Assembly (NCBI RefSeq): GCF_002210425.1
Contig: NZ_MWQK01000001.1
Coordinates: forward strand, 1-64,000
Length of the DNA stretch: 64,000 nucleotides
DNA from: Fibrobacter sp. UWB2
Lineage (GTDB): Bacteria > Fibrobacterota > Fibrobacteria > Fibrobacterales > Fibrobacteraceae
Direction of reading: 5' to 3'
Position numbers and translations under genes: made by a program. Each line of letters opens with the position of its first letter. Position 1 is the first letter of the stretch. The notes below the pieces were generated by a model. That model worked only from the letters and a program-made list of their open reading frames with translations, did no database searches and was not told where the DNA came from. Positions 2,154 to 56,001 of this stretch are shown here, piece by piece.

Positions 2154-4073
2154 ATGAAAATAATTAACTTAGGCATTCTGGCTCACGTTGACGCAGGAAA
2201 GACAACATTAACGGAAAGTTTATTGTATACCAGTGGTGCAATTGCAGAACTAGGGAGCGTAGATGAAGGCACAACAAGGACAGATACAATGAATTTGGAG
2301 CGTCAAAGGGGAATCACTATCCAGACAGCAGTGACATCTTTTCAGTGGGAGGATGTAAAAGTCAACATTATAGATACGCCAGGCCATATGGATTTTTTGG
2401 CGGAAGTATACCGTTCTTTATCCGTATTAGACGGAGCAGTATTATTAGTTTCTGCAAAGGATGGCATACAGGCACAGACCCGTATACTGTTTCATGCACT
2501 ACAGATAATGAAGATTCCGACAATTTTTTTCATCAATAAAATTGACCAAGAGGGGATTGATTTGCCAATGGTATATCGGGAAATGAAAGCAAAGCTTTCT
2601 TCGGAAATTATAGTGAAGCAAAAGGTTGGGCAGCATCCCCATATAAATGTAACGGACAATGACGATATGGAACAGTGGGATGCGGTAATTATGGGAAACG
2701 ATGAACTATTAGAGAAATATATGTCAGGGAAACCGTTTAAAATGTCAGAACTGGAACAGGAAGAAAACAGGAGATTCCAAAACGGAACGTTATTTCCCGT
2801 TTATCACGGAAGCGCTAAAAACAATCTGGGGATTCGGCAGCTTATAGAAGTAATTGCCAGTAAATTTTATTCATCAACGCCTGAAGGTCAATCTGAACTA
2901 TGCGGGCAGGTTTTTAAGATTGAATATTCAGAGAAAAGGCGGCGTTTTGTTTATGTGCGTATATATAGCGGAACATTGCATTTGAGGGATGTTATTAGAA
3001 TATCTGAAAAAGAGAAAATAAAAATCACAGAGATGTATGTTCCGACAAACGGTGAATTATATTCATCCGATACAGCCTGCTCTGGTGATATTGTAATTTT
3101 ACCAAATGATGTTTTGCAGCTAAACAGTATTTTGGGGAACGAAATACTGTTGCCGCAGAGAAAATTTATTGAAAATCCTCTCCCTATGCTCCAAACAACG
3201 ATTGCAGTAAAGAAATCTGAACAGCGGGAAATATTGCTTGGGGCACTTACAGAAATTTCAGATTGCGACCCTCTTTTAAAATATTATGTGGATACTACAA
3301 CGCATGAGATTATACTTTCTTTTTTGGGGAATCTGCAGATGGAAGTCATTTGTGCCATCCTTGAGGAAAAATATCATGTGGAGGCAGAAATAAAAGAGCC
3401 TACTGTTATATATATGGAAAGACCGCTTAGAAAAGCAGAATATACCATCCACATAGAAGTCCCGCCAAATCCTTTCTGGGCTTCTGTCGGGTTGTCCATA
3501 GAGCCGCTCCCTATTGGAAGCGGAGTGCAGTATGAAAGCAGAGTTTCACTTGGATATTTAAATCAATCGTTCCAAAATGCGGTTATGGAGGGGGTTCTTT
3601 ATGGCTGCGAGCAGGGGCTGTATGGATGGAAAGTGACAGACTGTAAAATCTGTTTTGAATATGGATTGTATTATAGTCCTGTAAGTACCCCCGCAGACTT
3701 TCGGCTGCTTTCCCCTATCGTATTGGAGCAGGCTTTAAAAAAAGCAGGGACAGAACTATTAGAGCCATATCTCCACTTTGAAATTTATGCACCGCAGGAA
3801 TATCTCTCACGGGCGTATCATGATGCTCCAAGGTATTGTGCAGATATTGTAAGTACTCAGATAAAGAATGACGAGGTCATTCTGAAAGGAGAAATCCCTG
3901 CTAGATGTATTCAAGAATACAGGAACGATTTAACTTATTTCACAAATGGGCAGGGAGTCTGCTTGACAGAGTTAAAAGGATACCAGCCAGCTATTGGTAA
4001 ATTTATTTGCCAACCCCGCCGCCCGAATAGCCGTATAGATAAGGTTCGGCATATGTTCCACAAGTTAGCTTAA
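2154..4073 (+). CDS. tet(O): Tetracycline resistance ribosomal protection protein Tet(O)
   Basis: A 639-residue EF-G-like GTPase that binds the ribosome and dislodges tetracycline. Visible motifs are the P-loop AHVDAGKTT at residues 10-18, switch II DTPGH at about 74-78, NKID at about 128-131, and RGIT in switch I. The sequence agrees with Tet(O) from memory almost throughout (for example [20 protein letters not shown]), and less well with Tet(M) and Tet(W). Full length and intact. It has a strong ribosome site (AGGAGG) seven bases before the ATG and is controlled by the leader peptide and attenuator upstream. Low GC content marks it as acquired. A KTR gene follows. Confidence 0.96.
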
Positions 4074-4339: not shown

Positions 4340-4592
4340 GGCTCTGTCAAGCCTTTCCGTATTGCTGCGTTAAAAATCTTTATTGGCTGTAAATTGGCTG
4401 CGGTTTCTTGGCGGGCTCTGTCAAGCTTGGCTGTATGTTTGCGAACCTGCTGTGGTTATGCTGCGGCGGTCAAAATGGCCAAAATAGCCTAAAAACAGCA
4501 TTTCCGAGGTGAATTTGCAGGTTTCGATGGGCTGACGGATTGGGAAAGTTTTGCTAACCCAGGGTTGGCGTATAAAATGACTTGACAGAGCC
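4340..4592 (+). mobile_element. MITE-like 253-bp element, copy 2
   Basis: Same sequence and orientation as 1-253, with the same 12-bp inverted ends. Left flank CGAATCAT, right flank ATTTTTAA. The two copies bracket the tet(O) segment as direct repeats, giving a composite structure or the product of homologous recombination between a circle and a chromosomal copy. Confidence 0.85.
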
Positions 4593-17030: not shown

Positions 17031-17060
17031 AAAGGACATCGCTTAGCGATGCCCTTTTTT
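17031..17060 (+). terminator. Terminator of the nucleotidyltransferase gene
   Basis: GGACATCGC-TTA-GCGATGCCC followed by TTTTTT. Confidence 0.8.
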
Positions 17061-17106
17061 CTTTCGTCTTTAGTCTGTAGCTCGCTTGCGAGCGTTCTCT
17101 CGTCTA
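17061..17106. repeat. Intergenic repeat, second copy of the 8208 family
   Basis: CTTTCGTCTTTAGTCTGTAG, a CTCGC-TT-GCGAG hairpin, then CGTTCTCTCGTCTA. The reverse complement matches the 8208 copy on both sides of the hairpin while the hairpin itself differs. Confidence 0.6.
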
Positions 17107-19446
17107 TTACAGCACGTCTACAGTTACTTTGTACATAGGCTTGTCCTTGTAACTGCGGAGAGCTTCTCTCGGGGCCGTGATGACTTTCAGGTTTTTCTTC
17201 GTGATGCCCGGCTGAGCGCGTAAGACCTTGAGGAGGTCGGCGTTGCGCTTCGATGCCATTTGCGGGAGAACCTTCATCATGTAGTTCTTGTCGATTTCGG
17301 CGGAGTGTTCCTTGACGTAGGCCTGGAACTCCTTGTCCTTTTCTTTAATTTCTTCGATGGCCCTGTAGTCGAGTTCGTTCAGTTCCGTCTTGTTGTTCTT
17401 TTGCTTATAGAAATCGATCTTGAGCTGTTTGACCTTGTATTCCTTGGCGGTCTTTCTCGGGTTGTAGTACTGCGTGAAGGTCAGCATCAGGTTCGGGTCC
17501 TTCTGGATCATTTCCGTCATCTTGGTGGCCTTGGCGTACTGTTCGCTGGTGAACGTATCTGTGTTTGCGTCAATCAGCACTTCATCGTTCTTGCCGAGGT
17601 CAAAGCCGAGCGCGCTTGCGCCTGCCATGGCGAGGTTTCCAACGAGTCTGAACGGAGAAATAGCGACCTTCACGAGCAGGTTCACGACGGTCTTCCAGAT
17701 GATTTTGCCGTAAGAGAATTCAGGGTCATCGAGGTTGCCTTTGACCGGCACGTCGAACTGGATTTTGTCGTCCTTGTCCTTCAAGATGTAGAGACCGATT
17801 TTCATCGGGACGGTGTATTCCGGATCGATGTCGTCCACCTTGTTGCCGACGGTGATGTTGTAAATGTCAATCGTGTTCTTGCTGTCGATGTTGCGGTCGA
17901 CAATCTTGTTTTCGCTTGCGAAGGCGAGGGTGCCTGCCTTGAGCGGGTAAGCCGTGTAGTGCAACGAGTAGTTCGAGAAGTGCTTGAGCACGAGGTTCTT
18001 CACGCTGATGTAGATGTCCATCGTGTTCAGGTTGCTGAGTGCTCCGTGGTACTTGAGCGAGAGACTGCCACCTTCGGGGAATGCGGCAGAAACGTTCACG
18101 TTGCAAGGCGTGTCGTAGTTGATGTTCTGGCCGGTAACGGTAATGGCGCTCACCTTGTAGTTGAACGGACGGATAATGGTGTGATCGGTGATGGTGATGT
18201 AAGTGTTCTTGACGAGGAGCTTGTTTATCTTCGCCTTGAGCTTCTTTGCGGCGGCGGGCTTTTCTGCTGTAGTTGTTGCGCTAGTCGAATCAGCGACGAC
18301 CTTTGTTGTATCTGTGGGTTCTTGCTTTGCAGCTTCTGCAACTGGTTCTGCCTGCGTAGAATCGGCGGCGGTTGTATCCGTCATGCTTCCGGCCTTGTTC
18401 TTCGGGGTGAGGAGTACGTCAATGTTTGTCTTGCCGTCCTTGTACAGGTCGATGTGGGCGAAGGCACCATCTACGATGACGGAGTCGATGAGGTATTCGT
18501 TGTCGACGAGGTTTGCCTTGTTGATTCCGACAGTGACGTTTTCTGCGCCCATCTTGCTTCCGCTGACTTCGGTGAGGTCAATCTTGTCGAGCGAGACCTT
18601 GCCCTTGACATTGGAGGCGAGGATGCTGTTGATGTTACCGCTGATGGCGATTTGAGCCGAGAGGTAACCCGCAAAATCCTTGTAGTTGATGGAATCGTTC
18701 AGGTACGGCTTGATGCAGGAGAGTGCAAATCTATTCAGGTTCAGGAAGATGTTGAAGTCGTAGGTGGCCATGTTGGCATCGACCTTCACGTTCAGGTCGC
18801 CACCGTCTGCAAACTTGAGGCTCACGTCGACGCCGGTCGAGTTGTCTTCGAGATAAATGGCCGGGATATTGATGGAAAAGTCCTTGAGGTGGAATTTGGA
18901 GCCGACTTTTGTATCCTGGTAGATGATGTTGCCCTTGTCAAATACGATGTTTCTCAGGCTGAGCTTGACGGGGAGCCCTGCGGCGATTTCAGCAGCGCTC
19001 TTGCTGCTGTCCGATTCGACCTTCTTTTCTTCGGGGTGCTCGGCGTAATAGATGCTGTCCTTTTGGGCGAGGAAGTCTAGAATATCGGAGAAGTTGAAGC
19101 GTTCTCCGTGCTGCGTGGTGCGAACATAGAGGGCCTTCATGTAGATGTCGCTGATGTCAAGCGTTCTCGTGAAGAGCTTTAGCGGGTTGATGTTCATACT
19201 GAACTTGTCGAACGCGACAAAGCGGGTCTTGTCGTCCGCTTCCATGACCGCGAGTGTATCTACGTCCAAAACGTAGGTAAACGGGTTCAGGCTGATGTTC
19301 TTGATGGTGATGCTTCGGCCAATCATTTCCTTGGAGTGCTCTTCGATGTAGCTACGGGCAATCTTGGGCGCTACGAGAAGTGTGACGAAGTAGAGGAGGA
19401 TCAAAGATCCTAATACAATGAGGGTGATTTTGAGTGGCTTTTTCAT
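17107..19446 (-). CDS. DUF748/AsmA-like inner-membrane-anchored protein
   Basis: A 779-residue protein with one N-terminal membrane helix (LKITLIVLGSLILLYFVTLLVA). The periplasmic part starts ITIKNISLNPFTYVLDVDTL, the DUF748 hallmark that resembles AsmA-type domains. Repeats of that fold follow, with FNYKVSAITVTGQNINYDTP and VPMKIGLYILKDKDDKIQFD in the second half. A Ala/Thr-rich low-complexity linker lies around residues 355-415. AsmA-like proteins bridge the membranes and move or organise lipids; that role here is inference. A longer frame exists, but the ATG at 19446 has TAGATT seven bases upstream and begins the signal anchor. Confidence 0.7.
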   Translation of the reverse strand: MKKPLKITLIVLGSLILLYFVTLLVAPKIARSYIEEHSKEMIGRSITIKNISLNPFTYVLDVDTLAVMEADDKTRFVAFDKFSMNINPLKLFTRTLDISDIYMKALYVRTTQHGERFNFSDILDFLAQKDSIYYAEHPEEKKVESDSSKSAAEIAAGLPVKLSLRNIVFDKGNIIYQDTKVGSKFHLKDFSINIPAIYLEDNSTGVDVSLKFADGGDLNVKVDANMATYDFNIFLNLNRFALSCIKPYLNDSINYKDFAGYLSAQIAISGNINSILASNVKGKVSLDKIDLTEVSGSKMGAENVTVGINKANLVDNEYLIDSVIVDGAFAHIDLYKDGKTNIDVLLTPKNKAGSMTDTTAADSTQAEPVAEAAKQEPTDTTKVVADSTSATTTAEKPAAAKKLKAKINKLLVKNTYITITDHTIIRPFNYKVSAITVTGQNINYDTPCNVNVSAAFPEGGSLSLKYHGALSNLNTMDIYISVKNLVLKHFSNYSLHYTAYPLKAGTLAFASENKIVDRNIDSKNTIDIYNITVGNKVDDIDPEYTVPMKIGLYILKDKDDKIQFDVPVKGNLDDPEFSYGKIIWKTVVNLLVKVAISPFRLVGNLAMAGASALGFDLGKNDEVLIDANTDTFTSEQYAKATKMTEMIQKDPNLMLTFTQYYNPRKTAKEYKVKQLKIDFYKQKNNKTELNELDYRAIEEIKEKDKEFQAYVKEHSAEIDKNYMMKVLPQMASKRNADLLKVLRAQPGITKKNLKVITAPREALRSYKDKPMYKVTVDVL

Positions 19447-26806: not shown

Positions 26807-28025
26807 CGATTTTGATTCCGACGAAAATGAAACTCCATTGAAGAGTGTACGCACGTCACGGCGCGAACACAGAAGCCGCCGTATCGATGTAATGCGTGAA
26901 TTGGAATCGGGAGTCGTTGATGAACGCCCAATCAAGGAGCGTTTCAGTCGCGAATTTAAAAAGGCAAAAATCAAGCGCATCAAGAATCCGGTCGAAAACA
27001 TCGGTGAAGAAAATTGCGTGGAAGGGCTTGTGCTCGAAGTCCACCGCCGCACCTGCGAAGTGCGATTAAACAAGAAGGAGGTGCCCCCCCGGAATAAATC
27101 CGGGGTGACAGAAGGCGGGCATGACAACCTTCCTACTTCCGACTTCCTACCGTCTACAGTAACAGCTATGTACCGTGCAACGACGTCCAAGACGCTTGGG
27201 GAATTCCCGGCCGTGGGCGACCGCGTCTTGCTCGGGCTTGTGAATGATGCCGATGACGAAGGTGATGGAGTCGGTTCGCAGAAGTATTGCGTTGTGCGAG
27301 TGCTCCCGCGAAAGAGCGAACTCAAGCGCCCGGGCCCGCGCGATAGCTTCTACAAACAGCAGACACTTGCCGCAAATATCGACCAGGTCGTGATTGTTGC
27401 GAGCGTGACGCAACCGGAATTCAACTACGGGTTCATGGACCGCTTTTTGCTTGCCGCAAACTTGAACGATTTGCCGTTTGTGCTCGTGCTCACCAAGATG
27501 GACTTGTTGCCGAATGGCGAAGCGGACCTATCGACGGATATTCGCGACTTCATGAAAATCGTGGACAAGGTGATTCCCGTGAGCGTTAAAAGCGGGAATG
27601 GCCTCGAAGTTTTGCGCAATGAACTCGTCGGAAAGTCCTCTGTCTTTAGTGGTATGAGCGGGGTTGGCAAGTCTACGCTCATCAACGAGCTCGTTCCGCA
27701 TGCCGAACTGCGCACGGGAGATGTCCGCGAACGCGATGGCAAGGGTCGCCATACAACGACTTCTTCGAGCTTGTTTGATTTCCCGGGTGGCGGTTACGTC
27801 ATTGATACGCCGGGGATTCGCAGCATTGGCCTTATGGATATGGAACCGGAAACGCTTGCAAAGATTTTTCCGGGATTCTTCGAAGATGACTTGTTTACAT
27901 GCAAGTTTAGCAACTGTAAGCACCTCAAGGAACCGGGCTGTGCCGTGCGTGCCGCTGTCGAATCGGGCAAAATTTCCGAAGCCCGCTATGCTAGTTACGT
28001 GAGAATTTTGAATTCAGGGAAATAG
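26796..28025 (+). CDS. rsgA: Ribosome small-subunit-dependent GTPase RsgA
   Basis: A 409-residue circularly permuted GTPase that checks late 30S maturation. An OB fold (about 75-180) is followed by G4 TKMD, G5 SVKSG, G1 SGMSGVGKST, switch with TTT and G3 DTPG, then the zinc finger CKFSNCKHLKEPGC. Two features are unusual: a basic N-terminal extension of about 70 residues, and an 84-bp in-frame insertion (27084-27167) in an OB-fold loop made from an intergenic palindromic repeat. The catalytic parts look intact. Confidence 0.93.
   Translation: MRNNDFDSDENETPLKSVRTSRREHRSRRIDVMRELESGVVDERPIKERFSREFKKAKIKRIKNPVENIGEENCVEGLVLEVHRRTCEVRLNKKEVPPRNKSGVTEGGHDNLPTSDFLPSTVTAMYRATTSKTLGEFPAVGDRVLLGLVNDADDEGDGVGSQKYCVVRVLPRKSELKRPGPRDSFYKQQTLAANIDQVVIVASVTQPEFNYGFMDRFLLAANLNDLPFVLVLTKMDLLPNGEADLSTDIRDFMKIVDKVIPVSVKSGNGLEVLRNELVGKSSVFSGMSGVGKSTLINELVPHAELRTGDVRERDGKGRHTTTSSSLFDFPGGGYVIDTPGIRSIGLMDMEPETLAKIFPGFFEDDLFTCKFSNCKHLKEPGCAVRAAVESGKISEARYASYVRILNSGK
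27084..27167 (+). repeat. Palindromic repeat inserted in frame in rsgA
   Basis: CCCCGGA-ATAAA-TCCGGGG (27087-27105), then TGAC and GGGCATGAC, followed by a low-complexity tail to 27167. It adds 28 codons (start PPRNKSGVTEGG) between two OB-fold strands. The same palindrome family occurs at 37239, 37832 and 55980. Confidence 0.7.
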
Positions 28026-36342: not shown

Positions 36343-39030
36343 TTACCCTTTCTTGCGGTCTTGCCAGACGCTTTGATTGAACAGCTGGCCTTCGGAAAGT
36401 CCGTACTTTTCTTCGACGCCTGCTTTAGAAATCGCTGTGTCAATGTCGAGCTTGCCGCGGATGGCTTGCGTATAAATGTCAATCTTGCGGCGGACAGATT
36501 CGGGTTCTTCGTCCAAGAGTTCTAGGCGGTAGCTGCTCACGTTTTGTGCGATGAGCCTTGGCAATAGCTTGAGGGCGGATTGCGGCTTGCCGACAAAGAG
36601 CGTGTTGCGGCATTCGGCATCGGATTGCAAGAAGTGGCGTTCGCCTTTGTGGTCGAGAATTTCGACTTTATGTTGTGTGCAAATCTTTTTGCATTCGGGG
36701 AAGCGGCGGCCTGTTGTGAGGGCGCGTGCGAAGGCGCAGTATTCTGAGTGGAATGCTGGCATGTACTGGTGTAGCGCGAGTTCGAGTTTGCTTCCGTCTA
36801 TGTTCTTGAGCAAGTCAAAAAGCTGTGTGCTGTTGAGGTCCCACGACGGATGCAATTTTTCGAGTCCTTGTGCCAAAAGCCAATCGTAGCTTGCGCTGTT
36901 GGTGGCGTTCAAGCTGTAGTCGCCGACCATCGGAATTCCGGAATCCTTGAGGAGCGCGAGCGAACCGAGATTACGCACCAAAGCAAATTCCGGCATGAGC
37001 GTGAGAATTTGTTTGATGTAATGGTTTTCGCTGGGCTTATGGATGCGGAGCGTAGCGATGCCGGCTTCAAAACCGAGCTTGTGGATGCGTTCGAGCGGCT
37101 CGTCGTATTTGACGCCCCAGTCAAAGTCCATGACGACTTTGTCGATGTCGAGACCTTGCAAGGCTTCGATTTGTTCGGGACGGCGAACGAGGACGGTAAT
37201 TGTGCGGCGATTGCTTGCTGCTTTGTCGGTAGTGCCCGCCCCGGAACGGAGTCCGGGGTGAACTCCAGCGGGAATCTCCTTCACCGAAACGCTATGTAGG
37301 AATGCGCGACCGTTGTCCGCAGAAGGTGCAAGTTCTTTCCACTGCAAGCGCTTTTCGTCCAAGGCTTGTACTGCTTCTTGACGGAGTGTGCGCAAAACTT
37401 TACCGGGGAGGAATGCGTTTTGTGGGAGCTTGATTTCGAGTTTGTCTAGAACGTAAGCGGTGGCGCTCAATCCTGAAAGTTCTTTTTTGGCGATGGCTTG
37501 CAAAGCATCGGCGGAACTTTCGTTGCGGGCGGCTTCGAGGACGGGGCCTTCGACCGTGGCGCTGTTCACGCTGGCAGTTGCGCAGTTTTCGCGATTCTCG
37601 CAGCCCTCGTGATTGTCGCGAGTCTCGGTAATCGTGAGCTTGAGCGGTTCGCCAATGGTTCCTTCGAGCGTCATGCACACGGGAATGTGCTTTGCAAAAC
37701 TTCTGTCGGTGAATGTCTTGTGCAGTTCTTTTTCGAGAGCGGGGGAGTCGTTGCGGTAGGCCTTCATGCCGTACGAGACTTTGCGCAAGTTGAATTCTCG
37801 ACCGAATTCCAGACGAACTTGTGCACTTGTCACCCCGGCCTTTGTGCCGGGGTCGGTATTTGCGCTTTTTCCTCGTCGTCCAATTTGTTGGAATGTAGCT
37901 TTGTACAGTCGACTTCCCGTTTGGCGCGGCTCGGGCTCTGCCCTATATTCTTCGAATAAAATCCCGTCGCCAGGCAACAATGTGCACGGAACAGGCTTGT
38001 CTTCAAGTTCCACAATCACGCCGCCGCGTTCCACCTGAACGACGGTTCCGATAAATTCGCCATGGTGGTTCGAGAAGGAGCCATCGACGAGTTCCTGGTG
38101 GTTCACTCCATCGAGCCAACCTGTGTTGAGTCCGCGCGAGAACAAGACTTCGAGCGGTTCCAAATCCTGCGCAGTAAGCCCGGCGGCATTTCCATTCGCA
38201 CACTCGGCTTTTTCTTTATAACCTTTTTCGCTCAGTATTTCCAGCGCCTTGCGATACGCGTGCGAAACGGCAGCCACATATTCCGGGCTTTTCAAACGCC
38301 CTTCGACCTTGAGCGATTCTACGCCGATGTCCTTGAGTTCTTCAAGTTTCGGGAGTGCACAAAGGTCACGTGTGCTGAACAAGTAACGGGCCTTCGGATC
38401 TTTCCATTCCTTGCCGTCCACAAAAATGCGGTAGGGAAGGCGGCAGCTTTGGGCGCACTGCCCGCGGTTTGCCGAGCGTCCGCCAAAGTTTTCGCTGGTA
38501 AGGCACTGCCCCGAGTACGAGACGCAAAGCGCCCCGTGGATGAAAACTTCAAGTTCCAAGTCGGTGAGGCTCTTGATTTGCGCAATTTGTTTTGCCGAAA
38601 GTTCGCGAGCCAAGACCGCTCTTGAAAATCCGATGTCCTTGACCAAGTTCACGGCTTCGGAACTCGCGAGCGTCATTTGCGTGCTCGCGTGGATTTCCTG
38701 TTCTGGGCTAATCGCCTTGATGAGCCTTGCAAGCCCGATGTCCTGGATGATGAACGCGTCCGGCTTTAACGCAATCAAGCGTTCCAAAAATTCCGGCAAT
38801 TCCTGAATTTCGCGCTCGAAGATGAGAATGTTCATCGCAAGGTACGTCTTTACGCCGCGAAGTCTTGCGTAGCGGATCATCTCTTCGACATCTTCAAATG
38901 AAAAATCTTCGGTTCGACCGCGTGCGTTCCAGTGGGGCACACCATAGTAAACCGCGTCCGCCCCGTTGTTGATGGCGGATTCCAGCATGTCGCGCGTACC
39001 GACAGGCAAAAGAAGTTCAGGATTGTTCAT
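36343..39030 (-). CDS. U32 family peptidase, RlhA-like
   Basis: An 895-residue U32 protein. The N-terminal domain has ELLLPVGTRDMLESAINNGA, ADAVYYGVPHWNARGR and the cysteine cluster VSYSGQCLTSENFGGRSANR with GQCAQSCRLPY. A second part ends in KICTQHKVEILDHKGERHFL. This architecture matches RlhA, which hydroxylates C2501 of 23S rRNA in E. coli, though it is about 240 residues longer. Two palindromic repeats lie in frame at 37239 and 37832 and explain part of the extra length. The start has TATTTT seven bases upstream. Confidence 0.8.
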   Translation of the reverse strand: MNNPELLLPVGTRDMLESAINNGADAVYYGVPHWNARGRTEDFSFEDVEEMIRYARLRGVKTYLAMNILIFEREIQELPEFLERLIALKPDAFIIQDIGLARLIKAISPEQEIHASTQMTLASSEAVNLVKDIGFSRAVLARELSAKQIAQIKSLTDLELEVFIHGALCVSYSGQCLTSENFGGRSANRGQCAQSCRLPYRIFVDGKEWKDPKARYLFSTRDLCALPKLEELKDIGVESLKVEGRLKSPEYVAAVSHAYRKALEILSEKGYKEKAECANGNAAGLTAQDLEPLEVLFSRGLNTGWLDGVNHQELVDGSFSNHHGEFIGTVVQVERGGVIVELEDKPVPCTLLPGDGILFEEYRAEPEPRQTGSRLYKATFQQIGRRGKSANTDPGTKAGVTSAQVRLEFGREFNLRKVSYGMKAYRNDSPALEKELHKTFTDRSFAKHIPVCMTLEGTIGEPLKLTITETRDNHEGCENRENCATASVNSATVEGPVLEAARNESSADALQAIAKKELSGLSATAYVLDKLEIKLPQNAFLPGKVLRTLRQEAVQALDEKRLQWKELAPSADNGRAFLHSVSVKEIPAGVHPGLRSGAGTTDKAASNRRTITVLVRRPEQIEALQGLDIDKVVMDFDWGVKYDEPLERIHKLGFEAGIATLRIHKPSENHYIKQILTLMPEFALVRNLGSLALLKDSGIPMVGDYSLNATNSASYDWLLAQGLEKLHPSWDLNSTQLFDLLKNIDGSKLELALHQYMPAFHSEYCAFARALTTGRRFPECKKICTQHKVEILDHKGERHFLQSDAECRNTLFVGKPQSALKLLPRLIAQNVSSYRLELLDEEPESVRRKIDIYTQAIRGKLDIDTAISKAGVEEKYGLSEGQLFNQSVWQDRKKG
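37235..37270. repeat. Palindromic repeat inside the U32 gene (a)
   Basis: CCCCGGA (37239-37245) and TCCGGGG (37252-37258) around ACGGAG, followed by TGA. On the coding (minus) strand it is translated as GVHPGLRSGAGT, a poorly conserved-looking linker between two domains. Confidence 0.65.
37828..37856. repeat. Palindromic repeat inside the U32 gene (b)
   Basis: GTC then ACCCCGGC (37832-37839) and GCCGGGGT (37846-37853) around a six-base loop. On the minus strand it is translated as TDPGTKAGVT within a stretch rich in Gly, Arg and Lys. Confidence 0.65.
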
Positions 39031-55942: not shown

Positions 55943-56001
55943 AGGCCGCCCCAAACGGGACGGCCGTGTTGCTATGTCCCCCCGGACTTGTTCCGGGGTC
56001 G
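55943..56001 (+). terminator. Terminator plus palindromic repeat
   Basis: GGCCGCCC-CAAAC-GGGACGGCC (about 55944-55966) follows the FISUMP gene with only a weak T-run. A CCCCGGA-CTTGT-TCCGGGG palindrome (55980-55998) of the rsgA/U32 family then lies between convergent genes. Confidence 0.6.

Follow-up and report, generated by a model that had tools for sequence, protein, structure and literature searches.

How does a gene for a ribosome biogenesis GTPase come to carry, within its reading frame, a palindrome that also occurs between genes? The case is found in rsgA of Fibrobacter sp. UWB2 (genome G000), within a window of 64,000 nucleotides at the start of one contig. The insert is probably a stack of short, non-autonomous repeats that form hairpins, lodged in a surface loop that tolerates them; versions of this loop would have spread between lineages by recombination.

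The rsgA gene and its composite insert

The rsgA product matches RsgA/YjeQ chains in the PDB with E-values as low as 2e-53, and orthologues were found in 35 of the 36 genus relatives searched. Among named records its relatives are, with few exceptions, Fibrobacter MAGs of rumen or horse-faecal origin (best segment 73-93% identical), in agreement with the Fibrobacter-like host supposed in an earlier note on this DNA. The note's description of the enzyme as an 'essential-type' GTPase overstates the case: Staphylococcus aureus can do without RsgA (PMC8579695), and knockouts of yjeQ/yloQ survive, though they grow slowly (PMC9032327).

The palindrome CCCCGGAATAAATCCGGGG (27087-27105) keeps the frame of the ORF, as had been claimed. 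The extent first given for the insert, 27084-27167 or 28 codons, was nearly right; with boundaries taken from orthologues, the loop covers 93 nt or 31 codons, 26 more than the shortest loops (Table 1). The single palindrome of that description is present, but its nesting in a second palindrome and the heptamer array behind it had been missed. An unsplit copy of this outer palindrome, GAGGTGCCCGCTCGGTGGCGGGCATGACA, lies at contig position 100107. Folded as single-stranded DNA, the loop with the inner REP gives a z-score of -2.36.

Table 1. Features of the window that bear on the rsgA insert
Feature	Coordinates	Strand	Basis
Half copy of the ~100-bp heptamer/hairpin element of G023/G024	17060..17109	+	96% over 50 nt
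rsgA, small-subunit ribosome biogenesis GTPase, 409 aa	26796..28025	+	Pfam RsgA_GTPase, E=5.8e-54
Hypervariable OB-fold beta2-beta3 loop of rsgA	27069..27161	+	Alignments, loop extraction, AlphaFold2
Outer palindrome, split by the inner REP: GAGGTGCCC (27078-27086), AGGCGGGCATGACA (27113-27126)	27078..27126	-	Comparison with G004
Inner TGTC-tagged REP, TGTC-ACCCCGGA-TTTAT-TCCGGGGG	27086..27110	-	Palindrome scans, family scan
Degenerate heptanucleotide array CTTCCTA-CTTCCGA-CTTCCTA-CCGTCTA	27129..27157	+	Period 7 in the insert
U32-peptidase-family gene (Peptidase_U32 + DUF3656) with two in-frame palindromes	36343..39030	-	Pfam
CCCCGGA palindrome (37239-37258) nested in another palindrome of the U32 gene, encodes EIPAGVHPGLRSGAGTTD	37229..37279	+	Palindrome searches
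REP in the U32 gene, encodes TDPGTKAGVT	37828..37857	+	Family scan; other sequence at this site in G004
CCCCGGA palindrome, intergenic copy	55980..55998	+	Exact-site search

In an AlphaFold2 model of RsgA, itself modest (mean pLDDT 68.9), insert residues 95-118 lie between strands 86-91 and 121-125 with pLDDT below 50. This predicted placement between beta2 and beta3 supports the OB-fold loop proposed at the outset. The preceding beta1-beta2 loop, which touches h44 in solved complexes (PMC8579695), is a near-invariant HRRT, so the insert avoids the loop that reads the rRNA.

A TGTC-tagged REP family

Exact CCCCGGA-N-TCCGGGG sites occur three times in the window (27087, 37239 and 55980), where none is expected, and the whole 3.53-Mb genome holds 20 exact-arm copies against none in the reversed control. 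The palindrome is thus repeated, as the note had it. The copy that it placed between genes, at 55980, is indeed intergenic; the copy at 37239, within the U32 gene, had been overlooked.

The CCCCGGA palindrome is part of a larger TGTC hairpin family. Across 464 kb of the same contig, 42 tagged stem-loops were counted against 3 in the reversed sequence, and a stricter scan retained 39 members of uniform architecture, with a unit size of about 28 bp. The tag is TGTC in 37 of the 39, and the stem, allowed to vary from 7 to 10 bp, measures 8 bp in every copy and starts with AT (35) or AC (4). Hairpin loops are of 6 nt (29 copies), 5 nt (9) or 4 nt (1), and the unpaired tail is mostly CTCC or CGCC. 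As the search imposed a [T/C/A]GTC tag and a stem start of AT or AC, the information lies in the constant stem length, in the tag's T and in the tail. Stems vary with matched changes in both arms (ATGCCCGC/GCGGGCAT, ATTCCCGC/GCGGGAAT, ACCCCGGC/GCCGGGGT). A strict form of the pattern matches 174 times in this genome and never in the control; counts within the genus range from 0 to 177 per genome, and few are found beyond it. A distant Fibrobacterota genome (G055), with 18 copies of TGTCATTCCCGCGAAAGCGGGAATC-like REPs, is an exception to the low counts outside the genus.

The CGTC-tagged REPs carry a one-sided CGTC, often TGTC, tag, a stem of 8-9 bp that almost always starts with AT, a loop of 4-5 nt (other lengths in some species) and a tail that is mostly CCA; they lack association with a transposase, and some copies lie within genes (Di Nocera et al., 2013; PMC3733652). 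The Fibrobacter REP has the same kind of one-sided tetranucleotide tag, stem length and AT start, a short loop, a short tail and some in-gene copies, likewise with no transposase association in a search for Y1_Tnp (PF01797). Its loops, however, are mostly of 6 nt rather than 4-5, and its tail is C[T/G]CC rather than CCA. These features suggest a close match to the CGTC/TGTC-tagged REPs, a superfamily that holds Rickettsia RPE-4 and RPE-6; since loop length and tail differ somewhat, the element is called a variant of that superfamily. The text of the paper on CGTC-tagged REPs, which covers five phyla, makes no mention of Fibrobacter (PMC3733652). The earlier analogy with Rickettsia was therefore apt, and closer than claimed, as tag and stem, and perhaps the tail, fit the superfamily that includes these two elements.

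RPE-1 to RPE-7, described as about 100-150 bp long, occur in obligate intracellular bacteria, where they lie within the frame of housekeeping genes, at solvent-exposed sites; each orthologue has its insert at one and the same position (Ogata et al.; PMC2229807, PMC3767692). In Fibrobacter, too, palindromic repeats stand in frame in housekeeping genes, and the ATGAC motif of RPE-4/6/7 is present. The core element, in contrast, measures about 28 bp, a length near 100 nt being reached by composite loops only; the host genus is one of gut bacteria, and loops differ among close relatives. The Fibrobacter case works like an RPE insertion, yet it is not an RPE by size. In-frame palindromic regions are also described in addA, addB and priA of Wolbachia (PMC4224334), a likeness by description, not by sequence, with a different host biology.

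The heptamers recall other heptanucleotide tandem repeats, the TAACTGA repeats (PMC4679880) and the STRRs of cyanobacteria, in being degenerate, dispersed and mostly intergenic. Their units differ from these, and those of Fibrobacter also stand in frame in conserved genes, where they form hairpin halves. Period-7 arrays are the most numerous of any period in the 464 kb, yet few (4 at lag 7 against 0-1 at other lags); like STRRs, the units occur in tandem and have dispersed relatives. A further repeat family, GCGGGCGGGGCCCCAGCTCGGA, has four copies in the 464 kb (window 34810 and 39101; contig C1 125128 and 380589). The literature searched, of partial coverage, contained no prior description of such in-frame repeat insertion in Fibrobacter.

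Variation of the rsgA loop in the genus

Among 61 distinct rsgA genes of the genus, loop length ranges from 5 to 54 codons. The fillings comprise REPs, heptamer arrays of the CTCGTCT, AACTCCG and CTTCCTA types, a GTCATCCTGAGC-type repeat and some unclassified sequence. Beyond what the earlier note had noticed, several unrelated repeat families use one and the same loop. In an alignment of relatives the insert is absent from the sampled genomes of other families. The note had expected it to be absent or variable in other Fibrobacterota, and had named conservation across distant RsgA proteins, or a palindrome found nowhere else in the genome, as evidence against itself; with an insert variable in the genus and absent from other families, and a palindrome that is dispersed, neither is the case.

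All 61 loops are multiples of three and none contains a stop, regularities that would be needless if the segment were skipped by RNA splicing or translational bypass to leave a normal protein. Hairpins with repeats do recall bypass elements, but skipping is hardly credible here.

Intermediate states of the composite insert exist among relatives. The loop of G026 is a bare DDGTV turn, and that of L217 consists of the heptamer tail only, 39 nt identical to G004, with the palindromes absent. G004 has the same outer arms as G000, but between them lies another filling, about 55 nt long, which recurs in another G004 palindrome and in one of G000. These states suggest that a bare turn acquired the heptamer tail, then the outer REP and then the inner filling, in an undated sequence of events that draws no direct support from the core tree, since the loop of G001, sister to G000, is of another kind. 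The ~55-nt hairpin filling (TCCCCATNCGCGGATCATG...AAAGAG) also occupies a corresponding position within the TGTC palindromes of several loci (L130-L138 of G004; contig C1 near 376961), and its arms co-vary. In G023 and G024 the loop is filled by a heptamer/hairpin element of about 100 bp (fold z=-4.36), and full-length relatives of the G023 element, 80-89% identical, occur elsewhere in the genus.

In-frame repeats in other genes

As with Rickettsia RPEs, in-frame palindromic repeats recur in conserved genes, namely rsgA, the U32 gene, tilS and cobA-hemD. Both palindrome sites of the U32 gene are variable loops in orthologues, and an internal stop was found in none of 37 genomes. In TilS several loops contain repeat-encoded peptides and vary across 30 genomes; in several TilS matches a single stop is reported, which seems to be the one that closes the reading frame. 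In the tilS gene of G000 (contig C1 142972-144207) at least two REPs stand in frame, as do a heptamer array and a repeat of the GTCATCCTGAGCGAAGTCGAAGGATC type. CobA-HemD of this genome carries REP and heptamer peptides. REPs also occur in the linkers of two paralogous Ser-rich lipoprotein-like genes (contig C1 261792-262973 and 264628-265824), where they encode, for example, GDAGTESGMT.

Ordinary low-complexity drift, in which slippage grows and shrinks the loop and likeness to dispersed repeats is incidental, would account for the period-7 arrays that dominate many loops, and the loops of G007 and G011 resemble its plain outcome. As a general account it is nonetheless improbable: the loops contain genome-wide elements, both the REP and the ~100-bp hairpin element with its relatives, and tilS and rsgA of G004 share a filling that is read in the same frame.

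Loop alleles shared between distant lineages

G002 shares its 90-nt rsgA allele, letter for letter, with G015, G021 and L244, at a core identity of 84-85%, and the 105-nt allele of G023 differs from that of G024 by 1 nt, with cores 82% identical. The excess identity of these inserts (99-100% against 82-85% for the cores) has a binomial P of 1e-7 to 1e-8; at third codon positions, identity between these cores is only 58-63%. The remaining pairs that share alleles are close relatives and weaker, with little or no excess identity. In tilS, G012 and G014 have identical inserts and cores 77% identical.

The 45-nt flanks of the rsgA loop are often more alike when alleles match and less so when they are unlike (e.g. 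L254, G015); away from these immediate flanks, the gene follows the tree. On this core tree, built from rsgA alone and possibly itself recombinant, loop type requires 29 changes, compared with a mean of 34.5 and a minimum of 28 in shuffles. Short-tract recombination between lineages is the simplest reading of the shared alleles, which appear to have been exchanged horizontally, a conclusion beyond the scope of the earlier note. Nothing beyond neutral exchange in a genus that recombines would be needed.

A second, independent insertion from an identical donor was considered and rejected: elsewhere in the same genomes the G002 allele has only partial copies, of 86% identity at best, and the G023 allele only heptamer runs of about 32 nt. 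Protein-level purifying selection for identical alleles was also rejected, as third codon positions differ by 37-42%.

It is likewise improbable, if a possibility worth weighing, that the loop DNA is inherited vertically and kept for a function at the DNA or RNA level, such as a regulatory hairpin in the rsgA mRNA. Inserts 99-100% identical in genes so divergent at third positions are what it would predict, and orthologous intergenic copies look well conserved, though those pairs were chosen with bias. Close relatives, however, have unrelated or minimal loops, so no particular loop sequence is required, and the flanks tend to track the allele, as recombination predicts. In a genome-wide scan of conserved windows the G023/G024 insert falls within about the top 1-3%, in the company of tRNAs and of coding segments that look highly conserved; window identity alone was therefore not counted as proof. 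A first test of repeat conservation, on intergenic copies, was set aside because pairs had been picked on equal scores.

Turnover and origin of the inserts

ORFs of 150 aa or more cover about 90% of the 464-kb sample, taken from one contig, yet only 8 of its 39 REPs were placed in verified genes (P of 8 or fewer of 39 about 5e-19 at p=0.85); most gene insertions have thus evidently been purged. Four further REPs fall, on reading by eye, in spurious frames or doubtful start regions. Of about nine REP sites resolved in G004, about one is common to both genomes, and one G023 REP is missing from G024. REPs are gained and lost quickly, and these presence/absence comparisons suggest active mobility. 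Empty-site comparisons revealed no clean target-site duplication. The transposase search, for Y1_Tnp (PF01797) only, found no match in this genome; mobilisation of the RAYT/IS200 type was accordingly rejected for G000, though several relatives do have a match. A GTAG REP mobilised by RAYT fits neither this result nor the TGTC tag.

Recombining, non-autonomous repeats in a permissive loop remain the preferred account. The key element would be a Fibrobacter version of the TGTC/CGTC-tagged REP that lands genome-wide and is mostly lost by selection where it strikes genes. Survivors would be those that lie in frame and free of stops in a disordered loop, and they are presumably translated. A repeat already in the loop may offer a larger and safer target in which more repeats can nest; in this lineage the heptamer tail would have come first, then the outer REP and then the inner one. 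Loop versions could subsequently spread among lineages via short-tract homologous recombination. The sequences themselves give the identity of the repeats, the in-frame loops, their nesting, their variability among lineages and the discordance between alleles and cores. Translation, neutrality, the order of events and the route of recombination are what we infer from them.

At the protein level the inserted residues are most likely tolerated, not selected. Tentatively, and with rather little likelihood, the RsgA loop may instead be an exchangeable cassette whose variety is selected, for example as an escape from a toxin or a phage factor directed at RsgA, or as a means to tune 30S assembly.

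In-frame palindromic repeats have so far been treated mainly as a trait of intracellular alphaproteobacteria and of scattered REP-rich genomes. In the gut genus Fibrobacter they occur in many lineages, and a single loop has accumulated several repeat families. The dozens of natural RsgA loop variants (5 to 54 residues), together with similar series in TilS and the U32 protein, constitute a natural experiment in insertion tolerance, by which the neutrality of repeat peptides, the attraction of further invasions by invaded loops and the movement of alleles between species by recombination become testable. They also call for caution, as such repeats yield both real protein sequence and misleading alignments.

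Elsewhere in the window, an exact 253-bp direct repeat (1-253 and 4340-4592) flanks what looks like a ribosomal-protection-type tetracycline resistance gene (ORF 2154-4073). Mobilisation-like ORFs also lie between the two copies, and the whole resembles a small mobile element.
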